A DNA stretch of 64,000 nucleotides, from the NCBI GenBank assembly GCA_001606155.1, contig LODT01000034.1:62001-126000 (forward strand). The letters run 5' to 3'. A program made the translations under genes and the position numbers. Origin of the DNA: Tieghemostelium lacteum. Its lineage: Eukaryota; Evosea; Eumycetozoa; Dictyosteliales; Raperosteliaceae. Every line of letters starts with the position of its first letter. The first letter of the stretch is position 1. Shown here one piece after another: positions 27,658-64,000 of the stretch. Under the pieces are notes generated by a model. The model searched no databases. It was not told the DNA's origin and worked only from the letters and a program-made list of their open reading frames with translations.

Positions 27658-29400
27658 TTATTTAAGTCTTTTACTTGTAATATCCATTTTTTGTTTAATA
27701 CATTTTTTATCGAATAATTTAGAAAAATGTTCATGTAATTTAGGGTCTTGAAATTGTAGTGTTTTAATTGTGTTGTTTTTGATAATAATTTCAGAGAGTC
27801 TATTTACGTTAAAAGCATGTTGGAATGGATTTCCAAAGTATCTGCTTTGGACGTATAGATGTTCTATTGTAATGTTTTTAGATAACATGGTACAGAGGAA
27901 TTCTAAATCATCAGAAACACATCTATCCAATTGTAAATGTGTAATATTGGTATTGTTATAGATAGATGGTAGAATTTCATTTGGAAATGGTATGTTTATC
28001 AATTTCATTGCGGTTAGTGTCTTATGATGGCAGTTAAAGAGATTGGAGATTGCTTGTACTTCATCACCAATTAGTTTGCCATTATGTTGAAAACTAACTA
28101 GTTTTAAACTATGATGTTCAATAGTTTCGCAAATCTCTACTAAATTCAAAGAACCTTTTATATCCATATAAAAGATATAAAAGTCTTCTAATTGTGGTAT
28201 ATCTTTTAGTATACTTGGAATATATTTACATTGTGTATCATAATTAACTTGTAAATCTAAACTTTTTACAGAAGTTAAATTATTACAATTAATAAGGTCT
28301 TTGTGTTTATGATAATCTAATACCAAGTCCACTATATTATCCCTATGTTGCCATCGCGATAAAAAGTATATATTCACTTGCATTGTATGAATACTTTTAT
28401 TGGATATCTCTGGGTAAACAACAGGGCTATCATCACTATAGAATATGAAATTGGTGTTAAATGATTCTAAGGTTTTACTAGACTCTGAATTGAGATATTT
28501 AATCAATGCCATTTCTAATACTGATGATATTTTACTTGGTAATTGACAGAATATCGAGAGAATCTTTAGATTTTTAAATCCATTAGTAAAGAATGTAGCT
28601 TGGTTAATTTTCATAGGAGAATTATACATTGCATACAAATATTCTCTGTTATTGAGATCTAAACGGAATCTATCAAGGTTACCCTGTAATTGAATGAATG
28701 GAAGTATATCATATCTATCAACAATATAAGTGTCACTAGATATCAGTTCGAGTGATTTAACTTTTTGTAATTTCGTGATCTCTTTAAAAGAAACTGGGCA
28801 GAAATTAGATATCTCAAAAGTTACATTCTCAATGACTTTACTAGAACTGATAATATCTAATAGGATATTAACTAATGAAAAGGATTTAACCTTAAACTGA
28901 GTTAGATAGTAACTTTTAGCATCTCTAAGATTCCTATAGGTACAATCTTCAAGTTCTTTTAAAACATCATCTCTATTTTCACCAATTTTAATAGAAATCT
29001 GCATCACATTTAAAATCCTTGTACACACTCTGTCATTATATTCATGTTTTTCCATTTCCAATCTTAGTGATACAGATTCACAACACCCCAACATTACCAA
29101 TTCTTCGACGGTTTGATATAAAATATCAGTAATAGGGTAATTACAATTGTATGCCTCGACTTGTACATTAATGAATCCCAAAGTCTTTGAAGATATCTTT
29201 TTATAAATCTCTAAATGGTCATGATGTCTAATATCAAATCTCTGTTTCCAATATAATTTTCTTACAATATCATTTGAAAACTCTTTTGATAGGAGTAGTA
29301 ATGTTCCCAATATCCATTTTCTAAAACCAATTTCTTTTGTATCATAGATATCAATAAATAATTGTATAATTTTTAATAACAATATTTTAGGTATCTCCAT
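27658..29400 (-). CDS. F-box-like/LRR-like family protein, copy 1 of tandem pair
   Basis: The true start is the ATG at 29400 (MEIPKILLLKIIQLFIDIYD); the frame extends a few codons further without ATG. 580 aa. The N-terminus is helical and F-box-like: ILLLKIIQLFIDIYD, RKWILGTLLLLSKEFSND, VRKLYWKQRFDI, i.e. a hydrophobic start, conserved Trp and 'SKEFSNDIVRKLYW'. The rest is built of irregular leucine-rich strands such as NITHLQLDRCVSDDLEFL and ITIEHLYVQSRYFGNPF. This type of family is heavily expanded in dictyostelids; members may be substrate receptors of SCF-type ubiquitin ligases, but no specific function is known. Copy 2 follows head-to-tail 62 bp away. Confidence 0.7.
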   Translation of the reverse strand: MEIPKILLLKIIQLFIDIYDTKEIGFRKWILGTLLLLSKEFSNDIVRKLYWKQRFDIRHHDHLEIYKKISSKTLGFINVQVEAYNCNYPITDILYQTVEELVMLGCCESVSLRLEMEKHEYNDRVCTRILNVMQISIKIGENRDDVLKELEDCTYRNLRDAKSYYLTQFKVKSFSLVNILLDIISSSKVIENVTFEISNFCPVSFKEITKLQKVKSLELISSDTYIVDRYDILPFIQLQGNLDRFRLDLNNREYLYAMYNSPMKINQATFFTNGFKNLKILSIFCQLPSKISSVLEMALIKYLNSESSKTLESFNTNFIFYSDDSPVVYPEISNKSIHTMQVNIYFLSRWQHRDNIVDLVLDYHKHKDLINCNNLTSVKSLDLQVNYDTQCKYIPSILKDIPQLEDFYIFYMDIKGSLNLVEICETIEHHSLKLVSFQHNGKLIGDEVQAISNLFNCHHKTLTAMKLINIPFPNEILPSIYNNTNITHLQLDRCVSDDLEFLCTMLSKNITIEHLYVQSRYFGNPFQHAFNVNRLSEIIIKNNTIKTLQFQDPKLHEHFSKLFDKKCIKQKMDITSKRLK

Positions 29401-29461
29401 TATAACGATCACATGTAAAAAAAATATCTAGGAATTTAAATTTTAAATAAAAATAGATTAA

Positions 29462-31198
29462 TCACCAACTATCTAATTGATTTCTTTTATTTGTAATATC
29501 CATTTTATGTTGAATAGCCTTTTGAATAAATAATTTACCAAAATGTAAATCGAATTGGTCATCTCTTATATTAAGTGTTTTAATAGTGTTGTTTTTGTTT
29601 ATAACTTGAGAGACTCTTTGGACATTGTATGGTAGATTGAATGGATTTCCAAAGTATCTACTTTCAACGTATAGATGTTCTATAGTAGAGTTTTTAGATA
29701 ACATTTCCATGAGAAACTCGACATCATCAGATATACATTTATCTAATTGTAAATGTGTAATATTGGTATTGTTGTAGATTGATGGAAGGATTTCATTAGG
29801 TAATGTTATAAATATAAGTTTGATTGTGGTTAGAGTTTTATGATGAAAATTAAAGAGTTTAGCAATGGCATTTACTTCATCTCCTATAAGTGACCCACTT
29901 TGTTTCTGAAAACTAATTAATTTCAAAGTGGGGTGTAAAATTATAGTTTCTGAAATTGCCTCTAAATTCATAGATTTGAAACCACCAAAATATAGATATA
30001 ACTCTTTTAGTTGTGGGATGTCTTGAAGAATCTGTGGGACAGATTTACATTGTTCAACATTATTAATTTGTAAATACAAACTTGTTAATGCTGTTAATTC
30101 ACTACTTTTTATAGGGCCACCTATATAATTGCTGAAATCTAAAACCAAATCTACTATATTGTGTTTAGTTTGCCAAAGTAAAAATAAGAATATATTCACT
30201 TGTAGTGTGTGAATACTATCATTGGATACCGTTGGGTAAACAACCATATCTTCAATATCACTAAATGCTAAATTTGTGTTGAAGAATTCTAAGGTTTTAC
30301 TAGAATCTGAATTGAGATATTCAATCAATGCCAATTTCAATATGGGTGATATTCCACCTGGTGTCATAGAGGATATAGACAGACTCTTTAGATTTCTAAA
30401 TCCATTTGTAAAGAATGTAGGTTGGTTAATGAATTTAGTTAATGTAGGTGACATTTCTCTATTACGAATATCAAGATGAAATCTCTCTAGATTTCCTTGT
30501 AATTGAATGAATGGAAGTATATTATAACTATCAACAATACTAGCCTCACTAGATGAAATTTGTAGAGATTTGACTTTTTGTAATTTCATAGATTCTATAG
30601 AAACTTCACTATATATATTTAAGACCCCAATAGTTACATTCTCAATGACTTTACTAGAATTGATTATATCTACAATAATATCAACTAATGAAAAAGGTTC
30701 AGATTTTTGGGTTGGATAGTAACTTTTAGAATTTCTTAGAGTACTATAAGGGCAATCTTTAAGTTCTTTTATAACATCATCTCTATTTTCACCAATTTTA
30801 ATAGAAGTCAACATATTCTTAACTTTTGTAAAGAGTTTACCTCCACTATTTCTTCCATGTTCTAATTTTAGAGTTATAGATTCACAACATCCTAACATTG
30901 ACAGTTCTTCAATGGAATGATATGAAATATCAGTAATAGAGTAATTGTATCCCTCTACTTGTACATTAGTGAATCCCATTGTCTTTGAAGATATCTTTTT
31001 ATAAATCTCTAAATGATCATTTTGCAGAATATCAAATCTCTGTTTCCAATATAATTTTCTTACAATATCATTTGAAAACTCTTTTGATAGGAGTAGTAAT
31101 GTTCCCAATATCCATTTTCTAAAACTAATTCCTTTTGTATCATAGATATCAATAAATGTTTGTATAATTTTCAAAATTAATATTTTAGGTGTCTCCAT
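29462..31198 (-). CDS. F-box-like/LRR-like family protein, copy 2 of tandem pair
   Basis: 578 aa, single exon, ATG at 31198 (METPKILILKIIQTFIDIYD). Colinear with its neighbour over the whole length. Identity is very high at the N-terminus (RKWILGTLLLLSKEFSND and VRKLYWKQRFDI are identical) and at the C-terminal repeats (LPSIYNNTNITHLQLD, RYFGNPF), and lower in the centre. This suggests tandem duplication with divergence focused on the middle LRR-like section, where a substrate would bind if it is an F-box receptor (inference). Confidence 0.7.
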   Translation of the reverse strand: METPKILILKIIQTFIDIYDTKGISFRKWILGTLLLLSKEFSNDIVRKLYWKQRFDILQNDHLEIYKKISSKTMGFTNVQVEGYNYSITDISYHSIEELSMLGCCESITLKLEHGRNSGGKLFTKVKNMLTSIKIGENRDDVIKELKDCPYSTLRNSKSYYPTQKSEPFSLVDIIVDIINSSKVIENVTIGVLNIYSEVSIESMKLQKVKSLQISSSEASIVDSYNILPFIQLQGNLERFHLDIRNREMSPTLTKFINQPTFFTNGFRNLKSLSISSMTPGGISPILKLALIEYLNSDSSKTLEFFNTNLAFSDIEDMVVYPTVSNDSIHTLQVNIFLFLLWQTKHNIVDLVLDFSNYIGGPIKSSELTALTSLYLQINNVEQCKSVPQILQDIPQLKELYLYFGGFKSMNLEAISETIILHPTLKLISFQKQSGSLIGDEVNAIAKLFNFHHKTLTTIKLIFITLPNEILPSIYNNTNITHLQLDKCISDDVEFLMEMLSKNSTIEHLYVESRYFGNPFNLPYNVQRVSQVINKNNTIKTLNIRDDQFDLHFGKLFIQKAIQHKMDITNKRNQLDSW

Positions 31199-31728
31199 TT
31201 TTTATCAAATAAAATATCAATTTATATAAAAAATCCCACATTCAAAATAAAATTTAAAAACCTAAATAATAATAAAATACTGATAATTCAACTCGGATGA
31301 TGAGAATTCTAGTAATCAAGAGAATATATTATTTCTTATCAGGATAGATGGTTTAAATGGAGTCTATTGAAAAGAGGTAATAATACACCAATGAGAAAAG
31401 GAAAAGCAGTAAAAAATCATTCTTTTTTTGTCTATCAACAGGCTATGAAATCAAATAAAATTTTAATTAAACATTGATTAGTTAATGGTGCTTTAAAACA
31501 AAGTTTGGAACAGATATTAGCGTTCCGAGATAAATTAAATAAAGAATATTTGATAGTCCTTAGGTTTGGGATCAAGGTTATATTCAGATTCTGGTAGTGA
31601 AATTGCGAACACTGGAAATTATCTTTATTCTAAATTATATTATCAAAATTAATTGAAGAAAATATAAATATAACTCCTTAATTATTTTTTATACATTTAT
31701 TTATTTATTTATTATACATTTTTCTAAT
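31199..31728 (+). pseudogene. Spacer with a degraded coding-like fragment
   Basis: On the plus strand, about 31298-31600 has codon-like composition in one main frame (WFKWSLLKRGNNTPMRKGK; later NGALKQSLEQILAFRDKLN) but no start codon and interruptions. It is GC-richer than true spacers nearby. I do not recognise its family, and it matches none of the flanking genes by eye. It may be a remnant of a host gene or of a mobile element. The rest of the interval is plain A/T-rich spacer. Confidence 0.35.
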
Positions 31729-47741: not shown

Positions 47742-50400
47742 ATGTACGTCCTGAAAAGGGATGGTACTAAAGAATATGTATGTTTTTTATTAAATTATTT
47801 GAAATAGAATTCTATTTAAATTCAAAGAATCATTATAATTAATTTAAATTTTTTGGCGGGTGGTGAATAATGAATAGGTTGCATTTGATAAAATTACAAA
47901 AAGAATTCAATTTCTTTGTGAATTGGAACCAAAATTAAACACAGATATAGTTGATCCCACTGAAATTGCACAAAAGGTGGTCAGTGGTGTATTTCCTGGT
48001 GTTAAAACCACTGAATTGGACAACTTAGCAGCAGAGACAGCTGCATACATGTCAACACGTCATCCAGATTATGGTGTACTAGCTGCACGTATAAGTGTAT
48101 CAAATCTCCATAAACAGACATTAGACAACTTTGCCCAGACTGTAAAATTACAGTATGAGTATGTCAACCCAAAATCCAATCTTCCAGGCCCCTTAGTTAG
48201 CCAAGAACTCTTTGATATCGTTCAGGCTAATGCCGAGTTGATTGAATCTAAAATACAGTATAAACGTGATTTTGACTATGATTTCTTTGGTTTTAAGACT
48301 TTGGAAAGATCATATTTGCAACGTATCAATGGTATCATTGTGGAAAGACCTCAACATATGTTGATGAGAGTCTCTATTGGTATACATGGAACTGACTTGA
48401 ACGCTGCTTTTGAGACTTATGAAAAGCTCTCCATGAAGTTGTTTACTCATGCTACTCCTACATTGTTCAATGCTGGTACACCATTCCCTCAGATGTCATC
48501 TTGTTTCTTGGTTCAAATGAAAGAGGATTCCATTGACGGTATCTACGATACTTTGAAACAATGCGCATTGATTAGTAAATCTGCTGGTGGAATTGGTATT
48601 GCAGTTCACAAGATTCGTGCTGCTCAATCCTATATCCGTGGAACTAACGGAACTTCCAATGGTTTAGTACCAATGTTACGTGTATTTAACGACACTGCTC
48701 GTTATGTAGACCAAGGAGGCGGTAAGAGAAAAGGTGCTTTTGCAGTATACTTAGAGCCATGGCACGCTGATGTCTTTGAGTTCTTGGATCTAAAGAAAAA
48801 TCATGGTAAGGAAGAGATTCGTGCTCGTGACTTATTCTATGCCCTTTGGATTTGTGATCTCTTTATGGAACGTGTTCCTGGAAATGAAGATTGGTCCCTC
48901 TTTTGTCCTAATGAGGCCCCAGGTCTCGCAGAGTGCCATGGAGAGGAATTCAGAAAACTTTATCTCAAATATGAACAAACTCCAGGATTAGCTAGAAAAG
49001 TTGTTAAGGCTCAAGATTTGTGGTTTGCTATTGTGGAATCTCAAATTGAAACTGGTACACCTTATATTCTCTACAAAGATGCTTGTAATGAGAAATCAAA
49101 TCAAAAGAACTTGGGTACCATTTCATCATCCAATTTGTGTACTGAGATTATTCAATACACATCTCCAGAGGAAGTCGCAGTTTGTAACCTTGCCTCTATT
49201 GCATTACCAAAGTTTTTGAGAGAGGTTCCTAACACCAATCCAGAATCTTATTATAAGAAAGCCTTTGAATTTGATCATCAGGCTTTATATGAAGTTACAA
49301 AGATTATAACTAGAAATCTCAACAAGATTATTGATAGAAATTATTATCCAGTCCCAGAAGCTAAGACTAGCAACCTCCGTCACAGACCAATTGGTATTGG
49401 TATTCAAGGTCTTGCTGATGTTTTCTTAGCCCTTCGTCTACCTTTTGAATCCACAGGTGCAGCTAAATTGAATATTGAGATTTCCGAGACTATCTACTTT
49501 GCAGCTTTAAGCGCCTCAGTAGAACTCGCTCATAAGGATGGACCCTATTCATCATTCCAAGGTTCTCCAGCAAGTCAAGGTATACTCCAATACGATATGT
49601 GGGGTGTCACTCCAACCGATCGTTGGAATTGGAAACAACTCAAGGAAGATATCGCCAAACACGGTCTTAGAAACTCACTTTTAATAGCCCCAATGCCCAC
49701 AGCCTCCACCAGTCAAATTTTAGGTAACAATGAGGCTTTTGAACCATACACTAGTAACATATATTCCAGAAGAGTCTTAGCAGGTGAATTTACAATTATT
49801 AATAAGCAATTGCTTTCTGATCTTATGGAGCTTGGACTGTGGTCAATGGACTTGAAAAACAAGATTATAGCACACCGTGGTTCTGTTCAAAATATTCCAG
49901 AGATTCCAGAGGATTTGAAACAACTTTACAAGACAGTTTGGGAGATTAAACAAAGAGCCTTGATTGATATGGCTGCTGACAGAGGTGCTTTTATTGACCA
50001 ATCACAGAGCTTTAATTTGTTTGTCCCAGAACCAAATTTCAAGATACTTTCCAGTATGCACTTTTATGCTTGGAAGAAAGGGTTGAAGACTGGTCAATAT
50101 TATCTCAGAACTAGACCTGCTGCTGATGCCATTCAGTTCACTGTTGATCAATCACTTCTCCAACAACAGACTCCTGCAAAGACTTTGAATACTGATGGTA
50201 CTCCAAAGAAGGATGAGGCTAATAAAACACCTTCTCGTACTCCAAATACTCCAAAGAATAACCCAACAACTCCAAATCAATACACATCACCAATTCGTTT
50301 CCCACCACTTTCTCAACAACAACAAGAAGAAGAAGATCTAAGTAAATATGAAAATATGGTTTGTCGTCGTGAAGAAGGTTGTCTAATTTGTGGTTCTTAA
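47742..50400 (+). CDS. rnrA: Ribonucleoside-diphosphate reductase large subunit, 840+12 aa
   Basis: Reduces NDPs to dNDPs; rate-limiting for DNA synthesis. Exon 1 is 47742-47777 ([12 protein letters not shown]) and exon 2 is 47878-50400 ([20 protein letters not shown]); donor GTATGT, acceptor ATAG, phase 0, matching the ATP-cone start of RRM1. Catalytic parts: active-site Cys in [12 protein letters not shown], the N-x-C-x-E radical site [10 protein letters not shown], partner Cys in [13 protein letters not shown], the Tyr-Tyr radical path in [16 protein letters not shown], and the C-terminal redox pair CLICGS. A Thr/Pro/Asn/Gln-rich linker of about 65 residues separates the core from the swinging tail. 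Codon bias is strong. The symbol follows the D. discoideum name. Confidence 0.96.
47851..47860 (+). promoter_or_regulatory. Candidate E2F site in ribonucleotide reductase intron 1
   Basis: TTTTGGCGGG stands alone as a GC-rich word within A/T-rich intron 1, 18 bp before the acceptor. It agrees with E2F/DP sites of the TTTGGCGGG type. Dictyostelids have E2F and an Rb protein known to control S-phase genes. Position inside a short intron is unusual; could be chance. Confidence 0.35.
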
Positions 50401-50684: not shown

Positions 50685-53600
50685 ATGGCAATGAAGAAAG
50701 TCGGGTTTCTAGTCATACTATATGCATTTTTAATAGTATCAGTAAATGCTGGAAGTTTAAATACACAATTATTTAAAACTGTTGATTTAACACATCCATA
50801 TGAAAATAATGTTTATGGAACTGTTTCAGGTGGTTGTAAATTAACTATAGTTCTATCAATCACTGATCTTACATCATTAGGTATTGTGGGATATGAAGTT
50901 TCTTTTACAGGATTAACTACACAACCTAGTTTTAGTATCAGAGAACTGAATGGAAATATTAATGTTATAGAATTTTCTTTACCAAATGTACCTGGAGGAG
51001 AAAATAATATAACCATCAAAGCTGATACCACAGGTGGACTTGGTCAATACGAAATTTACCAATTTTCCTACTATTGTGAGATACTTCCACAGTAAATATA
51101 TATTTAAAATATCAAAAGAAACTAAAATTTACAATAGATCTAACCATATTATATTTAATATAGAGGACCATTCTTGGTAAATTCAGTAGGTTTTGATTTT
51201 GCAGATGGTTATTTATTTCAAACCGGAGCTGGATATGTATCCATTCCATTGAATATAACAAAAAGATTACCACCAACAAATCAACTTTCATTGCAAGTTA
51301 ATGATGTAACTTATGCATGTAATGTTAAACTGATTAATAATACATGTTATATTGCATGTTATTTAAATATAGGACAATTATTAGGTGTCAATCCAAATGT
51401 TGTAATTAATGGTTATGTTGCAGGTTCAAATAGATTTTCAGTTATTTTAGAATCTTTTGTTAAAGTTCAAAATACAGAATCACTATTACCCCAAGTAACT
51501 TATTATCCGTCAACTATCTCTGAGTTACCTAGTAAAACTAATTTTTATCAACTTTCAACAGTAAACAATTTCTTGGGATACTTTATAGTGATACCTAGTA
51601 GTATTACAAATGGATACAGTAGTTACATAGTAGGAGGTTCTCCAGGTAATCTCACTTTATTATCATCATCAACAATGAATTCTATTCAAACATTAACTTC
51701 TCAACTAGTACTATTTAAAGACTACGCACCAACATCACCAGTTTATGTACAATCAACAAACCAATTTAAATGTCTAAGTAAGTATTTTCAAATCTCTGAT
51801 TTTAATATTTTATGATCTATAATGATAACATTCTTAATATAACTTTAGCAAATTATGTTCAACCTCAAACTACATTTGTATCTCATAGCATTCAGGATAA
51901 CTATACACTTTATAATACTGTATCAATTCAAGGAACTGTTAATAGTCCATGGAACGGTTTATTAGAATTTACTCAAAATGGATTTTCATCCATTTATCCT
52001 AATTACTATCCATTTGGATGTGTGAATGGTCTTCCATCTGCACCTACAAAGTCAATGGGTTACCCTTTCATTATTCCTTCTTCTTATAAAATAGATCTAT
52101 ATTTAGATGGTTCTAGTGTATACTCTAACAATGCAGTTATAAATGGTAGGTTAAATATCAAACTCTCACTCTCAATGCATATTAATATTAATATTAATAT
52201 TAATATATATAAACAGATATACAAAATCCAAAATTATTAGATATACAATACAAATATATAAATAGTAGGGAAATGGTAGTAACAGCAGTAGCATCGGATG
52301 ATGTATCTGGTATAAAGACAATTTATTTATATTCACAAACTGAAGCACAATATAGATTCTATGAATTAAATAGTTGGGATTTAGTTAGTGGTACTTTGAA
52401 ATCTGGAACTTTCCAAAAATTAATTCAATATAAATTCGATAGGGTTTTAGGTGACTTAATGATCAGAGTTGAAGATCATTCAGGTAAATACTCCAAGTAT
52501 GAATATCTCAATGGTAAACCACTACCACAATATTTATATGATTTCACTACTTGTAAGTACTATAGTACAGCTTACTCTACTATTACTACTACTTTAAATA
52601 GTTTCTAATTGTAAATTTAATATAGATAAATATCAAATTAGAAGTGATATTTCTAATATATTCTTCAAGGACGGAAATGTTATGGATCTTTCGACATCAG
52701 CAAAGAACAATACAATGATTATTAGGTTTTTGTCACCAAAGCCTGATGTTTCAGCAGTACTCTATTTCACTGATGAAAATTTGATTTATAATAGATATTT
52801 TATAGGTGATTGGAATGAAGAACTTCAACAAATGGAAATTGACTTTTATTTACCATCTCGTTTATTAACAGGAAGTGTATTTTATTCAATTTCCTATCCA
52901 GGATATATTTTTGATTCTCCATACTTGAATCAAAGATATCTAGGTTCCTATCTAAAAGTTATATCTGATAGTATGTATATACACATTAAATACTACTTTA
53001 ATTATTTTATTAACACATGTTTAATTTGTAAAATAGATTGTGATAGAATGCCACCATTGATTACTTCAATTATAGAATTTAATAGTGATGGTTACTTTGG
53101 ATTTGATATTACAATTGAAGATGAAACTGGTTTTGATAGAGGTTTTATTTCTGTAAAGAGTAGTATTGATGATTATAGATTTAATTTTACACTTTCAAGT
53201 GAGGCTAAAAATCCATTGGTTGATGTTTATAGAATTAGTATACCATTTGTTGTACCGTGTGTATTCCAAAGATTCTCATTGGATATTGTAGAGTTATACG
53301 ATATAAATGAAGCTGTAAGTACTTTTTCTGATGGAAATAGTAATGGAGTATCACCATTTATGAAGATATTAGGAAATGTAAATACAACTATACCAAGTTG
53401 TGGTTTGTTCACTGATAACTTACCACCATCATTTGGGAACATAACTTCTATTACAAGTTCAGTAGACACTGGTTCTGAAGATAGATTGGTTACAGTTTCA
53501 TTTATGGTTTATGATGACGTTGCTATTTATTACCCCCATTTGCCATCTTGTTTAGCAACTAGTGAGGGAATGGTATATTTAACTGTTGTTTCAACTCTAG

Positions 53601-55093
53601 TTAATTTTACCCAAAATGTTGCCAATTATAGATGTGATTTCAATTTACCTTATGGGTTTGGATATCCTTCTGAATCTGGAAAATTATTAATATCTATATA
53701 TGGTATTGCAGATACGTCTCTAAAGATTATTGGTACTGATATAACTGATTTTGTAAATATTACCTTCACAAAACTTCCATTTATAACAAAAACATCAAAC
53801 ATGACAACACTAGGTGGTAGTTTGACTATTTATGGAAGAAATTTTGGTTTAGATCCACTTAAAACTACAGTTGAGGTCAGTTATAAGGATTTGAAATTCA
53901 ATTATACAACGTCAACTCTCTATACAGATTTGGTTGTAATCGATAGTATTTTAGAGAAACAGTCTAGTTTCAATATCACTTTGATTAATACTGGACAGAG
54001 ATCTAATATATTCACAGTTTTAGCTGAATATCTTCCACCTACTGGAACACCAAATCCTACAAGTTCAGGTTCTAAATGTCCAGGTACACCAGAATGTGGT
54101 GGATCATCAAATGGAATATGTGTAAATGCTGTTTGTCAATGTAAATCACCTTGGATAGGTTCTGATTGTCTCTCACAAGTTATTGTAGTTCCAAACCCCA
54201 CTATTAACACAACTGATCCTGCTATTGATAATAACTTTAATACCACTTTACCAGATGGTGATACTGTTACTCTTAAAACTCTCATTTCTATCATCTCTCT
54301 AAATGAAATGAATATCAATAATACATTAATTAAAGAACATCCATTCACAACATGGATTTTCACCAATCAAACCACCGTTAACCAAACACTATCTCAACAA
54401 TACCAATACTCAACCAACATCACCAACAATAGATTGACAACCAATATTATAATTACTCTTCAATATTTCACTGAAGAAACAACATTGATATTCGCCAATC
54501 AACTTCTAACCATTCTTCCATCATCAATTAAATATAATATTAAACTTACACCATACCAATTCTCATCAGAATTGAATTATCTTCAATTGATAATGTCAGC
54601 ATCAATCGAATCAACATCAACTGATTCATGTACCTATCAAGAAACAGGAACAACCAATGATTCCAATAACGATTATGTCAAACTTCAAATTGACAATAAC
54701 TCACTCTATGGAAGATTCATTAAAAGAGGAGTTATCGACAACCGAGTCAGAACCATTGAAAATATATTTTTCAATAACAATGAATCAACAAATTCCAATT
54801 CCAACTCTAGAATTGGTATCAATATCCCATATTTCAGAAAATCAGTTGAATTAGATCCAGATTTTTCAGTTCTTCTTGATATCACCAATGCCAATGACAA
54901 AGATAATTCAATTTGTCACATTTCTGATAAAGGACTCACTAAATCACAATTGGCAGGAATCATCATTGGTGCAGTTGCATTTGTATCTATAGTTGCCATC
55001 TCTATTGCCTATGTTATTTGGAAAAAGAAAAAACATCAAAAACTATTGGGAATCATGAATAAAAAACTTGGTTCTCTAAATACCAATAAATAA
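50685..55093 (+). CDS. Tandem TIG/EGF surface protein, copy A, 1351 aa, six exons
   Basis: Exons 50685-51091, 51164-51777, 51849-52145, 52217-52552, 52626-52970 and 53037-55093; all GT-AG with matching phases. A signal peptide (VGFLVILYAFLIVSVNA) precedes about 1000 residues of beta-rich ectodomain with many N-glycosylation sites. Then come a TIG/IPT domain (KTSNMTTLGGSLTIYGRNFG), a Thr/Pro linker, one EGF-like module (KCPGTPECGGSSNGICVNAV and CQCKSPWIGSDC), a Thr/Asn-rich stalk domain, a transmembrane helix (LAGIIIGAVAFVSIVAISIA) and a short basic tail (WKKKKHQKLLGIMNKK). The layout recalls dictyostelid ComC- and Tgr-type adhesion or communication proteins; a specific orthology is not claimed. 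The segment 54050-54916 is nearly identical to copy B. Confidence 0.85.
52166..52211 (+). repeat. Palindromic ATTAAT microsatellite in intron 3 of copy A
   Basis: About four and a half units of ATTAAT followed by TATATA, self-complementary and able to fold into hairpins. It lies inside the 71-bp intron 52146-52216 and takes up most of it. The equivalent intron of copy B lacks it. Confidence 0.7.
54050..54916 (+). repeat. Gene-conversion tract, copy A side
   Basis: 867 bp aligned without a gap to 58568-59434, with about 14 base differences counted by eye (98.4% identity) and four amino-acid changes in about 288. It covers the Thr/Pro linker, EGF-like module and stalk domain and stops just before the transmembrane helix. 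Flanking sequence on both sides is far less similar. Confidence 0.9.
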
Positions 55094-55224
55094 CGATTCT
55101 TTATGATTGTCAACAAACAAATCGGATGGCATCCAAATTTTGTTGCGATTTCATCAGATATTTTTTATTTGAAAAAATTTTTTTATTCTCAATTCCAATC
55201 AATTCTAATATCTATTTTAAAACT

Positions 55225-58200
55225 ATGATTTTGTATTATAAAATATTTACTATATCTTTAGTTATAATTATAGTTTATGGAGGAGGTTTAAATACCAATT
55301 TATATGAAACTCTTGATCTTACACATCCACTAGCAAATAATGTTTATAGTTTAGGTATAACAACAGGTTGTAATTTAAAGTTTATTTTTAGGGTAAAAGA
55401 TCTTCTATCAGTAGGAATACAAAGTTTTGATTCTTCAGTAGCAAATCTTTACTCTATAAATTCAGAATATGGAAATTATACTATTGTTGAATATTCTTTA
55501 AACATTCTTCCAGTTGGTACTAGTGATCTTATTTTTTATCTAATGACTGTAGGTGGAAATCAATATTCATTTTATGAAATTTTACAATATAATTGTGAAA
55601 TAATACCAACGTAACTATTATTTTATAAAAATGATATTAAATAGTTTTGATTAGCATTCTAACCCTAGTTTTTTTTTTCTAATTTTTAGAGGCTTTTTAT
55701 TGAAAAACCCTAATTTTAATATTCCATTTGATGGTGATTATCTATATACTACTGGTATTGGGTACAATGTGATACCTTTAAATATCACTAAAAGGATACC
55801 TGCAGATATGGTAATTGAAGTGACAGGAGGTGGCTATTCTTGTATTGCTACCATGGTTAATACATCAGCATATTTCAATTGTAAAACTGATTCTGTAAAT
55901 AATATATCTGAAAATATAGAAATTAGAACAATCATAGATGGTACAGACCAATTTGTACTTTCATTAGGATCCTATGTGAAACCTGCTGTAGTTGGTCTAT
56001 CAGCTACCCTTACAACCACTGTCTTTCCTTCTGTTGTAGAGTTACCTACTAAATCAAATTACTATATTTGCACATATTACAGTGAATATAGTGGACTTTT
56101 TTTTACAGATTCTTCTGGACAAACATCAGAGTCATACAATTACATTGTAGGTGGTAGTCTTGGTAGTTTCAGTCAAATCTCTACCTACTCTCTAACTGAA
56201 ATTCAAACTATATCCTCTCAAATAGTAATCATTCGATCATATTATCCAACACCTCCTAACATATATGTAGTACCAACTACATTTTCAGTTTTGAGTAGGT
56301 ATTAAAACTTTTATTTCAATTTTTAAGAAATACCCTAAATGTAACTAATATGCTTTTATAAACAGATAATTATGTTAATCCAACACCATCATTTGGCCAA
56401 GTTACTGGAAATACACTTACAGTTAGTGCATCTAAAATAATGGAGGCTCAAACTCTAGGTACCAATGTATATGCTGCTCCATTACTAATTAATCAAAATG
56501 ACTTTTATGGTGAATATCCAAACTATTATCCATTTGGATTAAACTCCTATTCTCCATCATCAACTTCAATGACAATGGGTTTTAAGAGTTTAGTACCACA
56601 ATCCTACCAAGTAATTTCAAAAATATTCAATGTTCAATACTATGATAATGCTGTAACAACCCAAGGTAAGTTCATACACATTATTACCAAATACATAATT
56701 TAATCTAATTATCAATATATCTATATTCAGATTTAGAAAATCCAGTACTTGTTGATTTAAAATATGATTATATAAGTGGTAGAGAAATGGTAGTAACAGC
56801 TGTTGCAACTGATGATGTTTCTGGTATAAAAAGTATATATTTATTTTCTATTGACAAGTCCTATTTTAAGTTATATGAACTTAGTAGTTGTGATATTATT
56901 AATGGTACTTTGACTTCTGGAGTATTTCAAAAGCTTATTACCTATAACTTTGAAAATATATTGGGTAATCTTAGAGTTATGGTAGTAGATCATTATGGAA
57001 GAACCTCTGAATATTCCTATTTAAATGCAAAACCATTGCCACAATATATATATGATTTTTCAAATAGTATGTATTTTCAAATACACAAATTAAAATAGTT
57101 ATAAATAAGCTGATTTTATAGTTATTAACTTTCGTTATACAGGTATTTATCAAATGAAAAGTGATATTGTATCAATATCATTCAAATCTAGTACAATGGA
57201 TCTTTCAACATCACCAAAAAACAATACAATGTTTATTAAATTTCAATCACCAAAACCTGATATTTCAGTAGCCTTATATTTCAAAAATGAAATGAACATT
57301 TATTATCGATTCTTTATTGGTGATTGGAATGAAGATATTCAACAAATGGAAATTGAATTCTATTTACCATCTAGACTATTAACTGGAAGTGTATTCTATT
57401 CTATTTCATATCCAGGATATCTCCTTGAGTCTCCATACTTAAATCATTTGTACCCAACATCAAAACTAAATGTATATTCACAAGGTATGTTTTTTAATAT
57501 TATTTTATAATTCATATATACTAACATAATCATATTTAGATTGTGATAGAATGCCACCATTAATTATTTCAAATGAAACATTCAATAATGGTAGTTACTT
57601 TGGATTTGATTTAACAATTAATGATAAAACTGGTTTTGATAAAGGTTTTGTCTCGATAAAGAGTGATTTGGATGAATTTAGATTTAATTTTACTCTTTCA
57701 AGTCAAGGTAAAAATGCATTGAATGATGTCTATAGACTTGAATTACCATCATTTACACCATGTATAACTCAAACATTTTCTTTGGATATTGTTGAATTAC
57801 ATGATATAAATGAAGCTGTTAGTTCCTATTCAAATGGAATGAGTGATGGAATATCACCATTTTTGATGATTATGGACAGTATAAGTGTGTTACCGGTTTC
57901 ATGCACCCAATTCGCTGATACTGTTGCACCTAATCTAAGTTATCTATATCCATCTAGAAACACTGTAAACACTGCTTCTGAAGACAGACAAGTTAGTATC
58001 ACATTCTCCATAACTGACAACAGCGCAATCTATTATAATCACGTACCATATTGTATGGCAAATAGTGAAGGTTTAGTATTTTATACTACACCTTCTAAAC
58101 TAGTAAACTACACTACCACCATCGCTTTTTATCAATGTGATTTTGATCTACCATTTGGGTTTGGATATCCTTCAGATTGTGGTAAAATTCTCTTTTTACT

Positions 58201-59605
58201 ATATGGTTTCGCAGATACTCGTTTAAATATCAAAAGTACGGGAAATACTATTCCTGGTTTGATATTTGTTACTTTTAATAACAATGGACCTATTATAACA
58301 AGAACTTCTAAAATGACATCTCTAGGTGGTAGTTTGACAATCTATGGAAGAAACTTTGGTGTGAATCCACAAAATGCTATAGTTGAAGTTAGTTATAGAG
58401 ATTATACCTTTAATTACACAACATCAATACTCTATTCAGTTTTAACTGTAATTGATAATATTCTAGAAAAACAGTCTGAATTTAATATCACTCTGATTAT
58501 CAATGGACAGAGATCCAATATGGTAATTATTCAAACTGTATATGTACAACCATTACCAACTTCAACTCCAAATCCTACAAGTTCAGGTTCTAAATGTCCA
58601 GGTACACCAGAATGTGGTGGATCTTCAAATGGAATATGTGTAAATGCTGTTTGTCAATGTAAATCACCTTGGATAGGTTCTGATTGTCTCTCACAAGTTA
58701 TTGTAGTTCCAAACCCCACTATTAACACAACTGATCCTGCTATTGATAATAACTTTAATACCACTTTACCAGATGGTGATACTGTTACTCTTAAAACTCT
58801 CATTTCTATCGTCTTTCTAAATGAAATGAATATCAATAATACATTAATTAAAGAACATCCATTCACAACATGGATATTCACCAATCAAACCACCGTTAAC
58901 CAAACACTATCTCAACAATACCAATACTCAACCAACATCACCAACAATGGATTGACAACCAACATTACAATTACTCTTCAATATTTCACTGAAGAAACAA
59001 CATTGATATTCGCCAATCAACTTCTAACCATTCTTCCATCATCAATTAAATACAATATTAAACTTACACCATACCAATTCTCATCAGAATTGAATTATCT
59101 TCAATTGATAATGTCAGCATCAATCGAATCAACATCAACTGATTCATGTACCTATCAAGAAACAGGAACAACCAATGATTCCAATAACGATTATGTCAAA
59201 CTTCAAATTGATAATAACTCACTCTATGGAAGATTCATCAAACGAGGGGTTATCGACAACCGAGTCAGAACCATTGAAAATATATTTTTCAATAACAATG
59301 AATCAACAAATTCCAATTCCAACTCTAGAATTGGTATCAACATCCCATATTTCAGAAAATCAGTTGAATTAGATCCAGATTTTTCAGTTCTTCTTGATAT
59401 CACCAATGCCAATGACAAAGATAACTCAATTTGTGAACAAATTTCTGATAAAGGTCTTTCTAAATCACAATTGGCAGGAATCATCATTGGTGCAGTTGCT
59501 TTTGCATTGATTGCTATCATTTCTTTATCCTATTACTTCTATAAAAAGAGAAAACATCAACAGTTATTAAACGAAATGGATAAGAAACTTAAAAACTTTA
59601 ATTAA
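55225..59605 (+). CDS. Tandem TIG/EGF surface protein, copy B, 1344 aa, six exons
   Basis: The start is set at the ATG 55225 (MILYYKIFTISLVIIIVYGG), which aligns with copy A's signal peptide; an upstream in-frame ATG at 55126 would add 33 residues and spoil it. Exons 55225-55610, 55690-56294, 56366-56665, 56731-57066, 57143-57484 and 57540-59605 lie at the same places and phases as in copy A. Conserved blocks include NTNLYETLDLTHPLANNVYS, REMVVTAVATDDVSGIKSIY and RMPPLIISN. TIG domain near 58290-58440, EGF-like module near 58590-58690, transmembrane helix LAGIIIGAVAFALIAIISLS and tail KKRKHQQLLNEMDKK. The ectodomain is roughly half to two-thirds identical to copy A, but 58568-59434 is about 98% identical at DNA level. 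Confidence 0.85.
58568..59434 (+). repeat. Gene-conversion tract, copy B side
   Basis: Partner of 54050-54916: same length, no indels. The sharp borders (SSGSKC side and SIC / SDKG side) rule out simple duplication age as the explanation, since both genes arose by one older duplication. Confidence 0.9.
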
Positions 59606-59871
59606 ACTCTTTTAGGTAACATTATCTAAAGTTTATAATAAAAAGACTCTGCTATATCACAACAAATATTCTTAAAATATAAATATTACAACATTGTTAA
59701 TATTTTGTACGAAAATATTAATTATTTTATGATAAAACCTTTTGGTATTAAGGAAGGTAATTTACACAAAAATGTGGATATTTTAAATTACATGAATTTG
59801 AAAAAAATTTCAGTGATGATCAATCAATCAACATGATGATATTTTTAATTGTGTTTTCTTCTTGATAAAGA

Positions 59872-62800
59872 ATGTTTAATTGTAAATTACTTGTATTTTT
59901 TCTATTTGTATTAGTTCAACTCTATGGTAAGTTGATTGTATAAAATATATAGATATAAATTGAAAATTTAACATTTAGTGAAAAAAGATTGTTATAAAAT
60001 AAAGATATTAAACCCAAATGAGCTTAATTTTTATGCAAGTACTGAGAAATCTGAAACTACTCAATGTAAATTACAGTATTTTATTATGATTTCACCTGAA
60101 CCTGGTGATGTTCCACCTACAGGAACCGAGACATTTACAGCGGATAATAGTCCTATATCTCTTATACCTCAAATATCATTGGTTGATGATAGTTTGTATG
60201 TTAGATTTAGTGTTTATCAGCCATTTAATAGCAAAGAAGCACGTAATATTACAATGAAATCAATAAGTGGTATATTTCTAGATCAGTTTAGTTTGCCTGC
60301 TAAATGTATAACTTTACCATACCCATTGGTAAATGTAAATACTGATTATAATGATTGGAAATTTTCAAGTGAAGAGTTAGGTTACTATTATACCTATCTC
60401 CAATTCAATTTGGATAGGTATCTAAATATACCAATGTTTACACTATTAGATACTACTTCACCATATACATGTGAATTTGAACAATATGGTTATACTATTC
60501 TAAAATTGAAATGTTATATTGTGTCAGGTGACTATACTGACCCTTTAGGTTTGACTTTTAATGTTATAATCAAAGATCCAACACCAGGAATCAATAGAAA
60601 TACTACATATACAATTCAATCATTTATAGATGCAAGTATGTAAATTTTTATATTTCGAATCAAAATGTATATTCCAGCGGTGATATCTAATATATAATCT
60701 AAATTGTAGATGCAGACATACCAGATGGATATCCATTAAAATATAGAGATGTAACAAAGGTATCATACCAAGATTACAATTTATTTGTGTATTTGAATGC
60801 AAGTGATGATGTGTATTTTACAACTGCGATTGTCCAACCGCTCAACAGTGTTTATTTGAATAAATTGGTTTTTTCAAATTCCACTAGTAGAACACTTTTA
60901 TTCTTCTATAGACTCATAGAAGATGGTCAAAAAGTTCTCATTCAAAATTCCTATTCAGATGAAATGAAAGTTAGATTTGAAACTCAATTTAATTTTCAAA
61001 CTCCAATAACATTAATAGATTCAGTAGATGTTACATTTAGTCAGAGCCCAAATACTGTAGATAGCCAATTATTCCTATTTAGTTATGAAATTGATGGTGA
61101 ATACTATGATTATGATCTCACTTTTAACTATGGTGATAATAGTAGAGTGGTATCATATGACTATCCATTTGGAACTACTCTAGTATCTGGAGGATTAATG
61201 CAAGCTAATATCATAGCTTACCTTCCAAAATTTGTAAATCTTGTTGGATCTCTGTCTGCTCAAAATTTGATGAACCCCAGCATTGATGTTTTCTCTAAAG
61301 ATCTAGCACTAAATTCACTATGGCCAGCAGATGAAGATGAACCTGGTCTAATATCTATCCAAATCATTCCAATTGGCCATCAACAAGTTATAGTTAGAGT
61401 AAATGCTTTTGATAATACATCAGGAGTCTATTCAATACAAATCTATGAACTATTTCAATTATATTCATGTGATATTGTAAGTGGTACTATAAACAACGGT
61501 ACTTTTGAAAAGTATTTTGATTATAGATATTCAATTACATCTGTCCCGCCATTCAGCCTTATCATTATAACTGATCTTGCTGGTAACAGTAAAACTGAAT
61601 ATCTAGCTAAATTCCCTCAGGTACCTTTGATACCTGACTATTTCTATTATGATAATCTTTTGGGTATGTTTAATAATAATTCAATTTTAATATCAAAACA
61701 TTATATTAATTTAAAATATTTCAGCTGAACAATTTAAAAGACCAATTAGTAGAATATACTTTAAATCTAATAATGTTGATCTAACTTCTAAAAATGTAAA
61801 AAATTCATTATACATCTATATTGAAAATTCACATCCTGAAGATATTATAAGATTGGAGATTAATTGTATTAATGTGAATGTATATGGTTATTGGAATTCT
61901 AAATTGTCAATGTATCAAGCTGATTTTACATTACCTATGAATATGCATAGTGGTGTAATACCATATAATGTATACTATAGACAATTGAAATATGATAGTA
62001 TATATCTACCTCCAACTGGACAATTATCAGTGGTGTCAGAATCTACAGATAGACTTCCACCTCTCATAGTTAATATAACTCAACCTCAAACTGATTATGT
62101 AGATGGTGGTATTAGAATTCAATGGACAATTAAAATTGAAGACAGTGTAAATGGGTTCAGTATTGGTATGGCTCAAGTTAGATGCCTTCAAGATCCTTAT
62201 AATTCATATACCTATGAATTTGTACAAAATGGGTCCATGTATTTAGAGGAGTATAATATAACCATAATAGTACCTAACACCGGAGCTTCTTTAATATACA
62301 ATTTAGTTTACATGGAATTGTATGATAGAGCAGGTCTAAAAAGTGTTTATAATGATCTATCGTATATTCAATCTATTAATAGAAAGAATCCAGTTGTCTT
62401 CCAAGATGTCAGTCCATTTTGTAAATGGGATAGCTTTTATTCGAATTTTTTGACTATTCCAATCAATGGAGTTCCAAAACCTGATTCACAACCTCCTTCA
62501 GTCACAGAAGTGTATCAATCATCCCCTAGTATTGATGTAACAGCTGTTGATAGATCATTTTCATTAACATTTACGATTGTAGATATCGATAGTAAATTAT
62601 CACAATTTCATGTACCCAAATGTTTCTTACATGGTATACTATTCCAAACTGTAAATGTCACTGCTAAACTAATCTATGAAGACATCCCACTAGCTATAGC
62701 AAACTACACATGTATATTTGATAACATTCCATATGGATTCGGGTACCCTGGAGCATCACTATATTACACCATCTCAGGATACTCAGATATCTATCTAAAC

Positions 62801-64000
62801 ATTGGTGGAACTAGCCCATCTTCTAAAATTGGACTACTATTCACACAAAGTATGCCAATCATTGAAACTGTATTACCAATTCCTCAACAATCTAATGGGG
62901 ATTTAACAATAGTCGGAAAGAATTTCTATAGAGCTCAATTCAAAATCAAAGTTGAGTACACAGATGAGACTTTTGATTACATTACCAATATAACTAAAAA
63001 GTATCAAAGTTATATGGTAATAACAACAAAATACAAAGAGATTAGATTCATCTGGGCATTGTCTTTAAATGATGATATATTCAGTAGATATATTATACCT
63101 GAATATACTATTCCTATAATACCTGTTATAAGATGTCCAGGTACACCTGAGTGTGGTGGAACCCAAAATGGTGTGTGTCAACCTACTGGATGTCAATGTA
63201 CACCTCCTTGGACAGGTTTAGAATGTCTCTCACAAATCATCAACACCACACCAAAAATCAATTCAACCAACCCATCTATTAACACTGATTTTAATACTAC
63301 TTTACCTGATGGTGAACAAGTATCTCTGAGAACACTGGTATCCTTTATGTCACTAAATGAACTCAACCAAAATGGACAGGCTATACTCTCTCATGTGTTC
63401 ACAACATGGATATACACCAATACCACTTCAAAATCATCTTTATCTGATATTCAAGAATACACATACCAAACCACTCTTAAAAATAGTTTAAATACAAATG
63501 TAACTGTTACGCTACAATATTTCACTAAAGGTCAAGTTATAGAATTTGCCAATCAGAAATTGGAAATGTTAGCATCAACTATAAAATATAGAATTGATAT
63601 GTCACCTTACCCTTTCCAATCCACTGTAAACTCATTAAGATTGATCATGAATACAGCACTGGAATCCAATTCTAATATTAAATCATCATGTTCAAGTCAA
63701 GAGAGTATTGATACTGATGATAGTCAATATGTTAAACTTCAAGTTGACACCCACAGTCTCTATGGTAGATTTATTAAAAGAGGTATAATAGATTATAGAG
63801 TACAAACTATTAGTAACACTATTGGAGCTGATAGTACTACATCTTCTCAAGAGTCTAATCAAACCTCATATTCATCAAGTACCAATGTTGGAATCAACAT
63901 ACCATATTACAAATACTTTGTAACTCTAGACCCTGATTTCTCCATTCTTGTTGACACTAAAGGCGCTGATACTAAAGAGAACTCCTTATGTAACCAATCA
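59872..64000 (+). CDS. Tandem TIG/EGF surface protein, copy C, 3' end outside window
   Basis: Exons 59872-59926 (signal peptide MFNCKLLVFFLFVLVQLYV), 59979-60635, 60710-61663 and 61725 to beyond the window; phases match throughout and the last frame is open to base 64000. The exon layout differs from A and B: the signal peptide is a separate exon and the region covering exons 3 and 4 of A/B is one exon. The ectodomain is much more diverged (IQIYELFQLYSCDIVSGTIN corresponds to IYLYSQ...ELNSWDLVSGTL in A). The EGF-like module is present (RCPGTPECGGTQNGVCQPTG and CQCTPPWTGLEC), with the following stalk domain (YVKLQVDTHSLYGRFIKRGI). The transmembrane helix should follow just outside the window. 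Confidence 0.82.

Follow-up and report, generated by a model that had tools for sequence, protein, structure and literature searches.

Tandem ComC-type surface protein genes of Tieghemostelium lacteum: divergent heads on stems homogenised by gene conversion

Why do neighbouring surface-protein genes of Tieghemostelium lacteum differ so much in their outer parts and so little close to the membrane, and what could such an arrangement be for? The question arises from the end of the window (the whole stretch of 64,000 nucleotides analysed here, positions 62,001 to 126,000 of contig LODT01000034.1), where an earlier note had counted three neighbouring genes and proposed a candidate recognition system. 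The focal array in fact consists of four head-to-tail genes, all on the forward strand. Following the assembly past base 64000, as the note had asked, showed gene 3 stopping at 64177 and yielded one further copy, gene 4, whose stop at 68971 (both window-equivalent positions) ends the array; an unrelated minus-strand open reading frame lies behind it. Each gene model has its own transmembrane (TM) helix and tail. The gene models that fall in the window, supported by Pfam matches, are:

50685-55093, + strand: gene 1, ComC-type surface protein, about 1349-1359 residues, 6 exons
51092-51163, 51778-51848, 52146-52216, 52553-52601 (or -52625), 52971-53036, + strand: introns of gene 1 in the best-scoring model
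55225-59605, + strand: gene 2, ComC-type surface protein, about 1342-1351 residues, 6 exons
59872-64000, + strand: gene 3, ComC-type, about 1367-1372 residues, 4 exons, stop codon past the window at 64177

Four models with GT-AG introns fit gene 1, the ambiguity lying in the second donor and the fourth acceptor, and six fit gene 2, where the acceptors of the first and third introns are ambiguous. The tails are short and basic, with no signalling domain recognised in the Pfam scan.

By domain content, the four genes are members of the ComC family. A head of DUF7743, DUF7035 and DUF7034 is followed by the EGF-like DUF7949, the ComC supersandwich domain (ComC_SSD) and then the TM helix. ComC_SSD (PF22933) exceeds its cut-off of 24 in all of them, with 63, 60.8, 39.3 and 60 bits in genes 1 to 4 (the frame of gene 3 is cut at the window end), which bears out the comparison with ComC-like proteins made in the earlier note. 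DUF7949 (PF25820) is likewise present in four of four (50.8-53.6 bits), DUF7035 (PF23034) and DUF7743 (PF24893) are above cut-off in genes 1 to 4, and DUF7034 (PF23033) in genes 1, 2 and 4. The matches placed on the window are as follows:

52213-52572, + strand: DUF7743 (PF24893), variable head of gene 1, 70.7 bits; the match, made on the unspliced frame, slightly overruns the exon
53039-53386, + strand: DUF7035 (PF23034), variable head of gene 1, residues 148-263, 92.2 bits
53447-53773, + strand: DUF7034 (PF23033), variable head of gene 1, residues 284-392, 79.4 bits
54077-54181, + strand: EGF-like DUF7949 (PF25820), gene 1, residues 494-528 of the frame from 52598, 52.6 bits
54272-54874, + strand: ComC supersandwich domain (PF22933), gene 1, residues 559-759 of the frame from 52598, 63 bits against a cut-off of 24
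63134-63238, + strand: EGF-like DUF7949 (not part of the conversion group), gene 3, 50.8 bits at residues 474-508 of the frame from 61715

The shared architecture that had been described thus stands for the apparent signal sequence (by eye, genes 1 to 3), the long ectodomain, the EGF-like module, the stalk and the single TM helix, but not for a TIG domain: the best TIG match of the Pfam scan in gene 1 is 14.5 bits, below the cut-off of 20.9, and the exons scanned yielded no TIG for genes 2 and 3 at E values up to 1, nor for gene 4 at E values up to 0.1, a few short exons falling outside the scan. The C-terminal hydrophobic helix is read from sequence, and that of gene 1 is predicted helical in an AlphaFold2 model of the last exon that is otherwise of low confidence (mean pLDDT 36.4, the alignment being the three window sequences). 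The sole solved-structure match to this exon, a plant virus coat protein, is weak (E 0.14) and was put down to chance. The family is very large, with at least 150 ComC_SSD matches in the 23.3-Mb genome. ComC itself has a role in intercellular communication. In the consulted part of PMC4931340, comC is listed with EGF domains, a signal peptide and a TM segment and with limited conservation; that paper also lists a time course of development for D. lacteum. The dictyostelid ComC family has the same domains together with an apparent signal sequence and TM; the addition here is that the stem undergoes conversion array by array, as described below.

TgrB and TgrC bind each other as matched partners, and the array could be a kin-recognition locus of this type. 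Both systems share a general plan, in which the surface proteins belong to a large family that evolves fast and has diversified ectodomains, and three Tgr adhesion proteins are among the developmentally essential genes of limited conservation in the consulted part of PMC4931340. As described in the part of a preprint used here (PMC12324515), however, TgrB1/TgrC1 are characterised by TIG repeats, a divergent pair with one promoter, known polymorphism and recombination sites spread over the length of the genes. The scanned exons of our four genes hold no TIG domain above cut-off, all four genes lie on one strand with no divergently transcribed pair, and recombination in the ComC arrays is mostly bound to the stem. 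The parallel that had been drawn with TgrB/TgrC therefore finds no support as a statement of membership, and we regard a Tgr-like allorecognition locus as improbable.

The uniform stem of genes 1 and 2 is one sharp gene-conversion tract:

54050-54978, + strand: converted tract of gene 1, running from the end of the linker through the EGF-like domain, ComC_SSD and stalk into the first TM residues; 911 of 929 aligned bases equal gene 2
58568-59499, + strand: converted tract of gene 2, the counterpart of 54050-54978 and 3 bases longer than it
54950-55093, + strand: gene 1, TM helix with its short basic tail, homogenised in about the first 9 helix residues and not beyond, where identity is 0.61-0.58

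Identity is about 0.7 in the flank on the head side and about 0.6 on the tail side, the drop occurring within the TM helix, 9 codons into which the tract ends. None of 2000 column permutations reached its score. In the head part of the last exon, nucleotide identity between the two genes is 0.70 and dS 0.73, as against 0.99 and 0.02 in the EGF-like domain and 0.98 and 0.06 in the SSD. Genes 3 and 4 are homogenised neither with each other nor with genes 1 and 2: SSD identity is 0.56-0.62 (dS 1.2-2.0), and the EGF-like domain of gene 3 has a dS of 1.19 to gene 4 and 0.77 to genes 1 and 2. The proposal that ectodomains diverge and the membrane-proximal part is kept uniform is consequently right for genes 1 and 2, but it does not extend to genes 3 and 4, nor to the tail and the greater part of the TM helix (about 0.6). 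The four genes form no single clade in either the head or the stem tree. Genes 1 and 2 group at 1.0; genes 3 and 4 group weakly, in the head tree alone (0.37).

The genome contains many tandem arrays coding for single-pass surface proteins of the ComC type, and the focal four genes make up one of them. Among 27 arrays, 14 were compared, giving 52 within-array pairs, while the other 13 contributed at most single members. Seven came from search loci or the window region (C29a, C11b, C34b, C19, C24, C29b and C14, the last with its SSD cut at the locus end) and seven were chosen from the list with their sequence still unseen (C21c, C21a, C29c, C34a, C31d, C30 and C2e). One member, C21c_1, has a ComC_SSD of 65.5 bits in the genome search and is absent from the hmmscan listing; it was retained since it can be aligned with the others. 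Tracts spanning 150 codons or more at an identity of at least 0.90 are present in 32 of the 52 pairs and 10 of the 14 arrays, so the pattern of a variable outside on a homogenised stem, suggested for the focal locus, reaches well beyond it. This count treats C21c_2/3 as a miss, a pair outside the tract test that is near-uniform along its whole frame. Tracts are found whether or not the heads of an array contain DUF7035, and several unlike head types are borne on one stem type. No tract of this kind was found in C11b, C19, C30 and C31d, or in focal genes 3 and 4.

The tracts most often begin at the border between head and EGF-like domain and often stop near the membrane. The start lies no more than 12 codons from that of the EGF-like domain in 22 of 32 tracts, from 8 arrays (random placement expects about 0.046), and the end no more than 20 codons from the beginning of the TM in 19 of 32, from 7 arrays, or in 18 from 6 arrays when C14, whose locus ends there, is left aside. 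At least one tract end falls off both borders in C24 gene 2, C21a, C29b, C34a, C2e and C29c_1/2. Between arrays, a stem identity of 0.80 or more is reached by 4 of 2093 pairs, and the four listed by SSD all include one dispersed copy.

Could the near-identical stems simply be young? Recent tandem duplication followed by extremely fast evolution of the heads would produce them with no conversion at all, and may hold for C21c_2/3, whose members are alike along the whole frame. For most pairs this is already contradicted by synonymous divergence. Of the 52 within-array pairs, 29 have a stem dS under 0.3, and in these 29 the head is near synonymous saturation, with a median dS of 1.02. Head and stem trees also conflict with support: in C29c the heads join genes 3 and 4 (0.99) and the stems genes 1, 2 and 3 (1.0), and there is conflict in C24, C14 and C21c as well. 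Recent duplication is thus very improbable as a general account. The EGF-SSD-stalk segment, or a part of it, is near-identical between neighbours in 10 of 14 arrays, and gene conversion is needed to account for it. Low stem dS is no fixed property of the domain, since 16 other within-array pairs have a stem dS of 0.8 or more.

Gene conversion needs homology. A passive account follows: stems are under stronger purifying selection, conversion persists wherever identity stays high, and the borders mark the places where head and tail have drifted, with no meaning for head diversity. Stems are indeed more alike than heads in all 52 within-array pairs and still so in the 16 pairs with a stem dS of at least 0.8 (median nucleotide identity 0.63, against 0.49 for the head), and in pairs lacking conversion dN is lower in the SSD than in the head. 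Constraint alone gives little advantage in C14, however, because its unconverted pair 2/3 is no more alike in the SSD (0.59) than in the head (0.60), whereas pair 1/2 reaches 0.99 in the SSD; moreover, the same domain edge recurs as a border in 8 arrays, with and without DUF7035 heads. We consider purely homology-limited conversion possible, if on balance unlikely. Selection was compared in all 9 within-array pairs with a head dS below 0.8, a set that replaces a first one of six hand-picked pairs (one with a dispersed copy). All 9 have a higher dN/dS in the head than in the stem, 7 of them with an uncorrected Fisher p under 0.05; in the most recent pair the values are 1.08 for the head and 0.17 for the stem. 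Positive selection is not demonstrated by these figures, because head dN/dS is at most about 1.

The closest known kind, as a mode of evolution, is regional gene conversion in clustered protocadherins. It is described for fugu, and for zebrafish and human as cited there, in the consulted part of PMC1852091. Both systems consist of tandem surface-protein genes with divergent membrane-distal domains and a membrane-proximal segment that is near-identical within a subcluster, unlike that of other subclusters and delimited by a discrete domain-level border. This combination was found in 32 of 52 pairs and 10 of 14 arrays, and focal genes 3 and 4 lack it; between arrays, 4 of 2093 pairs reach a stem identity of 0.80. 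The proteins are unrelated in content, as the Pfam scan returned no cadherin repeat in the scanned exons of the focal genes. Protocadherins share constant exons, whereas the focal ComC genes each have their own introns, TM and tail. The ComC tracts also differ from those reported for fugu in often stopping near the TM and in their third-position GC. GC3 is 0.197 in stems and 0.184 in heads of converted genes, and 0.242 and 0.198 in genes outside the converted set; because the gap is larger in the latter, there is no signature of biased conversion of the fugu kind. In a literature search judged by titles and abstract openings, with most subscription journals outside its scope, no listed paper dealt with conversion in ComC-type genes.

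Taken together, we favour, with a probability of roughly 0.6, the reading that ComC-type arrays encode a putative repertoire for recognition or adhesion, in which heads diversify and conversion keeps the stem uniform. Following tandem duplication, the heads have diverged almost to saturation at synonymous sites. The head would be the part in contact with something variable, whether another amoeba, the matrix or bacterial prey, and the stem would serve a common role such as cis-assembly or membrane coupling. If so, conversion could spread in the stem and would, in the head, be selected against or mechanistically blocked. The whole array would then be a repertoire built like the clustered protocadherins.

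The variable partner may be bacterial. Heads could form a receptor repertoire for prey or other microbes, its diversity driven by diet or an arms race, and play no part in recognition between amoebae. The great size of the family (at least 150 ComC_SSD matches in 23.3 Mb), the several unlike head types on one stem and the short tails lacking a recognised signalling domain are all consistent with this, but the present analysis found nothing specific to bacteria, and we hold prey recognition as a rather unlikely, tentative alternative. Clustered protocadherins are expressed stochastically and combinatorially in each cell. A stronger version of the repertoire reading makes the ComC arrays a protocadherin-like identity system of independent origin and separate from Tgr, with heads as specificity modules and conversion confined between the EGF border and the membrane border so as to keep an array-specific stem for cis assembly; we find this version doubtful.

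Were the repertoire reading true, a very large surface family would follow a protocadherin-type rule, with heads diversified and stems homogenised, but with an unrelated protein and in an amoeba whose multicellularity comes from aggregation. The tracts would then supply concrete borders dividing specificity (the head) from shared machinery (the EGF-SSD stem), and a second candidate system for recognising kin, cell type or prey would stand beside Tgr.

Finally, a tandem pair elsewhere in the window, unrelated to the array (27667-29401 and 29483-31199), was taken as a control, a single one and not clean, as it also has a more alike block: identity in 75-base blocks ranges from 0.68 to 0.97 and is highest near the gene start.

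The focal array of ComC-type surface-protein genes (C29a) belongs to a genome of 23.33 Mb in 43 contigs, in which the window corresponds to G000:C29:62001-126000. The genome is AT-rich, and its domains are those expected of the dictyostelid Tieghemostelium (Dictyostelium) lacteum, its probable source. The earlier note counted three neighbouring genes; once the sequence past base 64000 was read, the number became four. In window coordinates, the features are the following:

47878-50400: open reading frame before the array, presumably a ribonucleotide reductase large subunit by its look
50685-68971, + strand: the four array genes, gene 4 ending at C29:130971 (window-equivalent 68971), followed by an unrelated minus-strand ORF
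54050-54978, + strand: near-identical tract, gene 1
58568-59499, + strand: the same tract, gene 2

Modelled with GT-AG introns, genes 1, 2 and 3 encode proteins of roughly 1349-1359, 1342-1351 and 1367-1372 aa, as ranges because some splice sites are ambiguous. DUF7743, DUF7035, the EGF-like DUF7949 and ComC_SSD are above cut-off in all four genes, and DUF7034 in genes 1, 2 and 4. The TIG domain formerly ascribed to the array genes was not found above cut-off in the exons scanned from this array, the sole match being in gene 1 (14.5 bits, below 20.9).

Genes 1 and 2 share a tract that runs from 9 codons upstream of the EGF-like domain to 9 codons inside the transmembrane (TM) helix and matches at 911 of 929 aligned bases. 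Past it, within the helix and tail, identity drops to about 0.6; in the last exon's share of the head, the variable outer region, identity is 0.70 and dS 0.73. With tract DNA as query, gene 2 matches at 98% and the next best along most of the tract is C23:158437, at 75%. Genes 3 and 4 have no such tract (SSD 0.62 nucleotide identity, dS 1.23), and therefore the picture of divergent ectodomains over a uniform stem, proposed earlier for the whole array, is true of one pair only.

The pattern recurs among 66 compared genes of this one genome, 44 from 14 arrays (of 27) read as such and 22 others, some of which are lone representatives of further arrays. Stem identity exceeds head identity in 52/52 within-array pairs; stem dS is below 0.3 in 29, whose heads have a median dS of 1.02, and at least 0.8 in 16. 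A qualifying tract (at least 150 codons at identity of at least 0.90, matched by 0/2000 column permutations in a maximal-segment test) is present in 32 of the 52 pairs and 10 of the 14 arrays, with none in C11b, C19, C31d and C30. The tract begins no more than 12 codons from the EGF start in 22/32 (8 arrays; 0.046 expected on average at random) and stops no more than 20 codons from the TM start in 19/32 (7 arrays), or 18 (6 arrays) without C14, left out because its fetched locus ends at that point. Array counts are safer than pair counts, since pairs within one array are non-independent. Tracts start inside the SSD in C24 gene 2 and C21a, and start or end elsewhere than the EGF/TM borders in C29b and parts of C34a, C29c and C2e. 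The single control, an unrelated tandem pair at window 27667-31199, was not clean.

This minus-strand pair (about 580 aa each) has 77% DNA identity, with 92-97% blocks near the 5′ ends, and an F-box/LRR-like look by eye only; one gene scanned against Pfam gave a sole, sub-threshold match to DUF1757.

The near-identical stems point to gene conversion, since selection on the protein cannot explain their low synonymous divergence. Other neighbours in the same arrays exceed dS 1 for this domain: inside C14 it is 0.05 for genes 1/2 vs 1.46 for genes 1/3. Head and stem trees are in supported conflict in C29c (heads 3+4, 0.99; stems 1+2+3, 1.0), C24 (heads 1+2, 0.948; stems 1+3+4, 0.901), C14 (heads 2+3, 0.825; stems 1+2, 0.999) and C21c (heads 2+3+4, 0.985; stems 1+2+3, 0.874), and agree in C31d. 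Heads form a single clade in 12/14 arrays and have therefore diverged in place rather than been imported; the exceptions are C29a, where 1+2 do not join 3+4, and C34b, to whose first gene a dispersed copy, C9s_1, is nearest. Between arrays, stem identity reaches 0.80 in only 4/2093 pairs, and C9s_1 is in every one of the four between-array pairs listed by SSD. Copying from 3′-anchored cDNA would be a different route to such stems; the un-homogenised tail would argue against it. GC3 showed no conversion bias.

The C9 copy (G000:C9:203232-203843, locus L023) and the first member of the C34 array (G000:C34:283153-283770, L022) have head identity 0.92, suggesting a recent jump out of that array.

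Head dN/dS (0.36-1.08) exceeds stem dN/dS (0.10-0.45) in 9/9 within-array pairs whose heads have dS below 0.8, at uncorrected Fisher p < 0.05 in seven; the others are C34a_1/3 (p 0.40) and C34a_2/4 (p 0.17). Six hand-picked pairs of an earlier set have the same direction. Heads thus evolve in a relaxed or diversifying manner relative to stems, and these ratios do not imply positive selection. The most recent duplicate pair seen, C21c_2/C21c_3 (L054-L055), has head dN/dS 1.08 and amino-acid changes concentrated in codons 300-480.

These are tandem arrays with old heads, young stems and conversion borders enriched at domain edges. We hypothesize that heads bear specificity and stems a common role; heads may be spared either by selection removing conversions that enter them or by sequence divergence blocking such conversions. 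Fugu protocadherins offer a close parallel: in PMC1852091, the 3′ part is about 99% and the 5′ part 58-80% identical (amino acids) within a subcluster, converted parts are only about 38% identical between subclusters, and borders lie at EC4 or EC5. The tgrB1/C1 system differs, recombination being described across the gene in PMC12324515.

Profile searches gave at least 150 ComC_SSD matches in the genome (150 scored out of 159 candidates) and 101 DUF7035 matches (above cut-off, 99). By position, 27 same-strand clusters of at least two contain 80/150 SSD matches, counted as matches rather than genes, since some genes may carry two. A 2016 count for D. lacteum by other domains lists 76 IPT/TIG, 15 EGF and 7 with both (PMC4931340). 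Of the arrays with tracts, seven have heads of the DUF7035 type (C29a, C24, C29c, C29b, C34a, C2e, C14) and three, C34b, C21a and C21c, have no listed DUF7035 match; the common denominator is the stem, not the head type. At L054:2543-5176, ComC_SSD scores 65.5 bits in the genome search yet is absent from the hmmscan list for the translated frame. G000:C24:922264-943838 and G000:C17:80588-87871 hold open frames of exceptional length (2110-3153 aa), rich in TIG matches and ending in ComC_SSD matches. The ComC_SSD gene at G000:C2:1053163-1053810 has one in-frame TAG, possibly marking a pseudogene or an intron.
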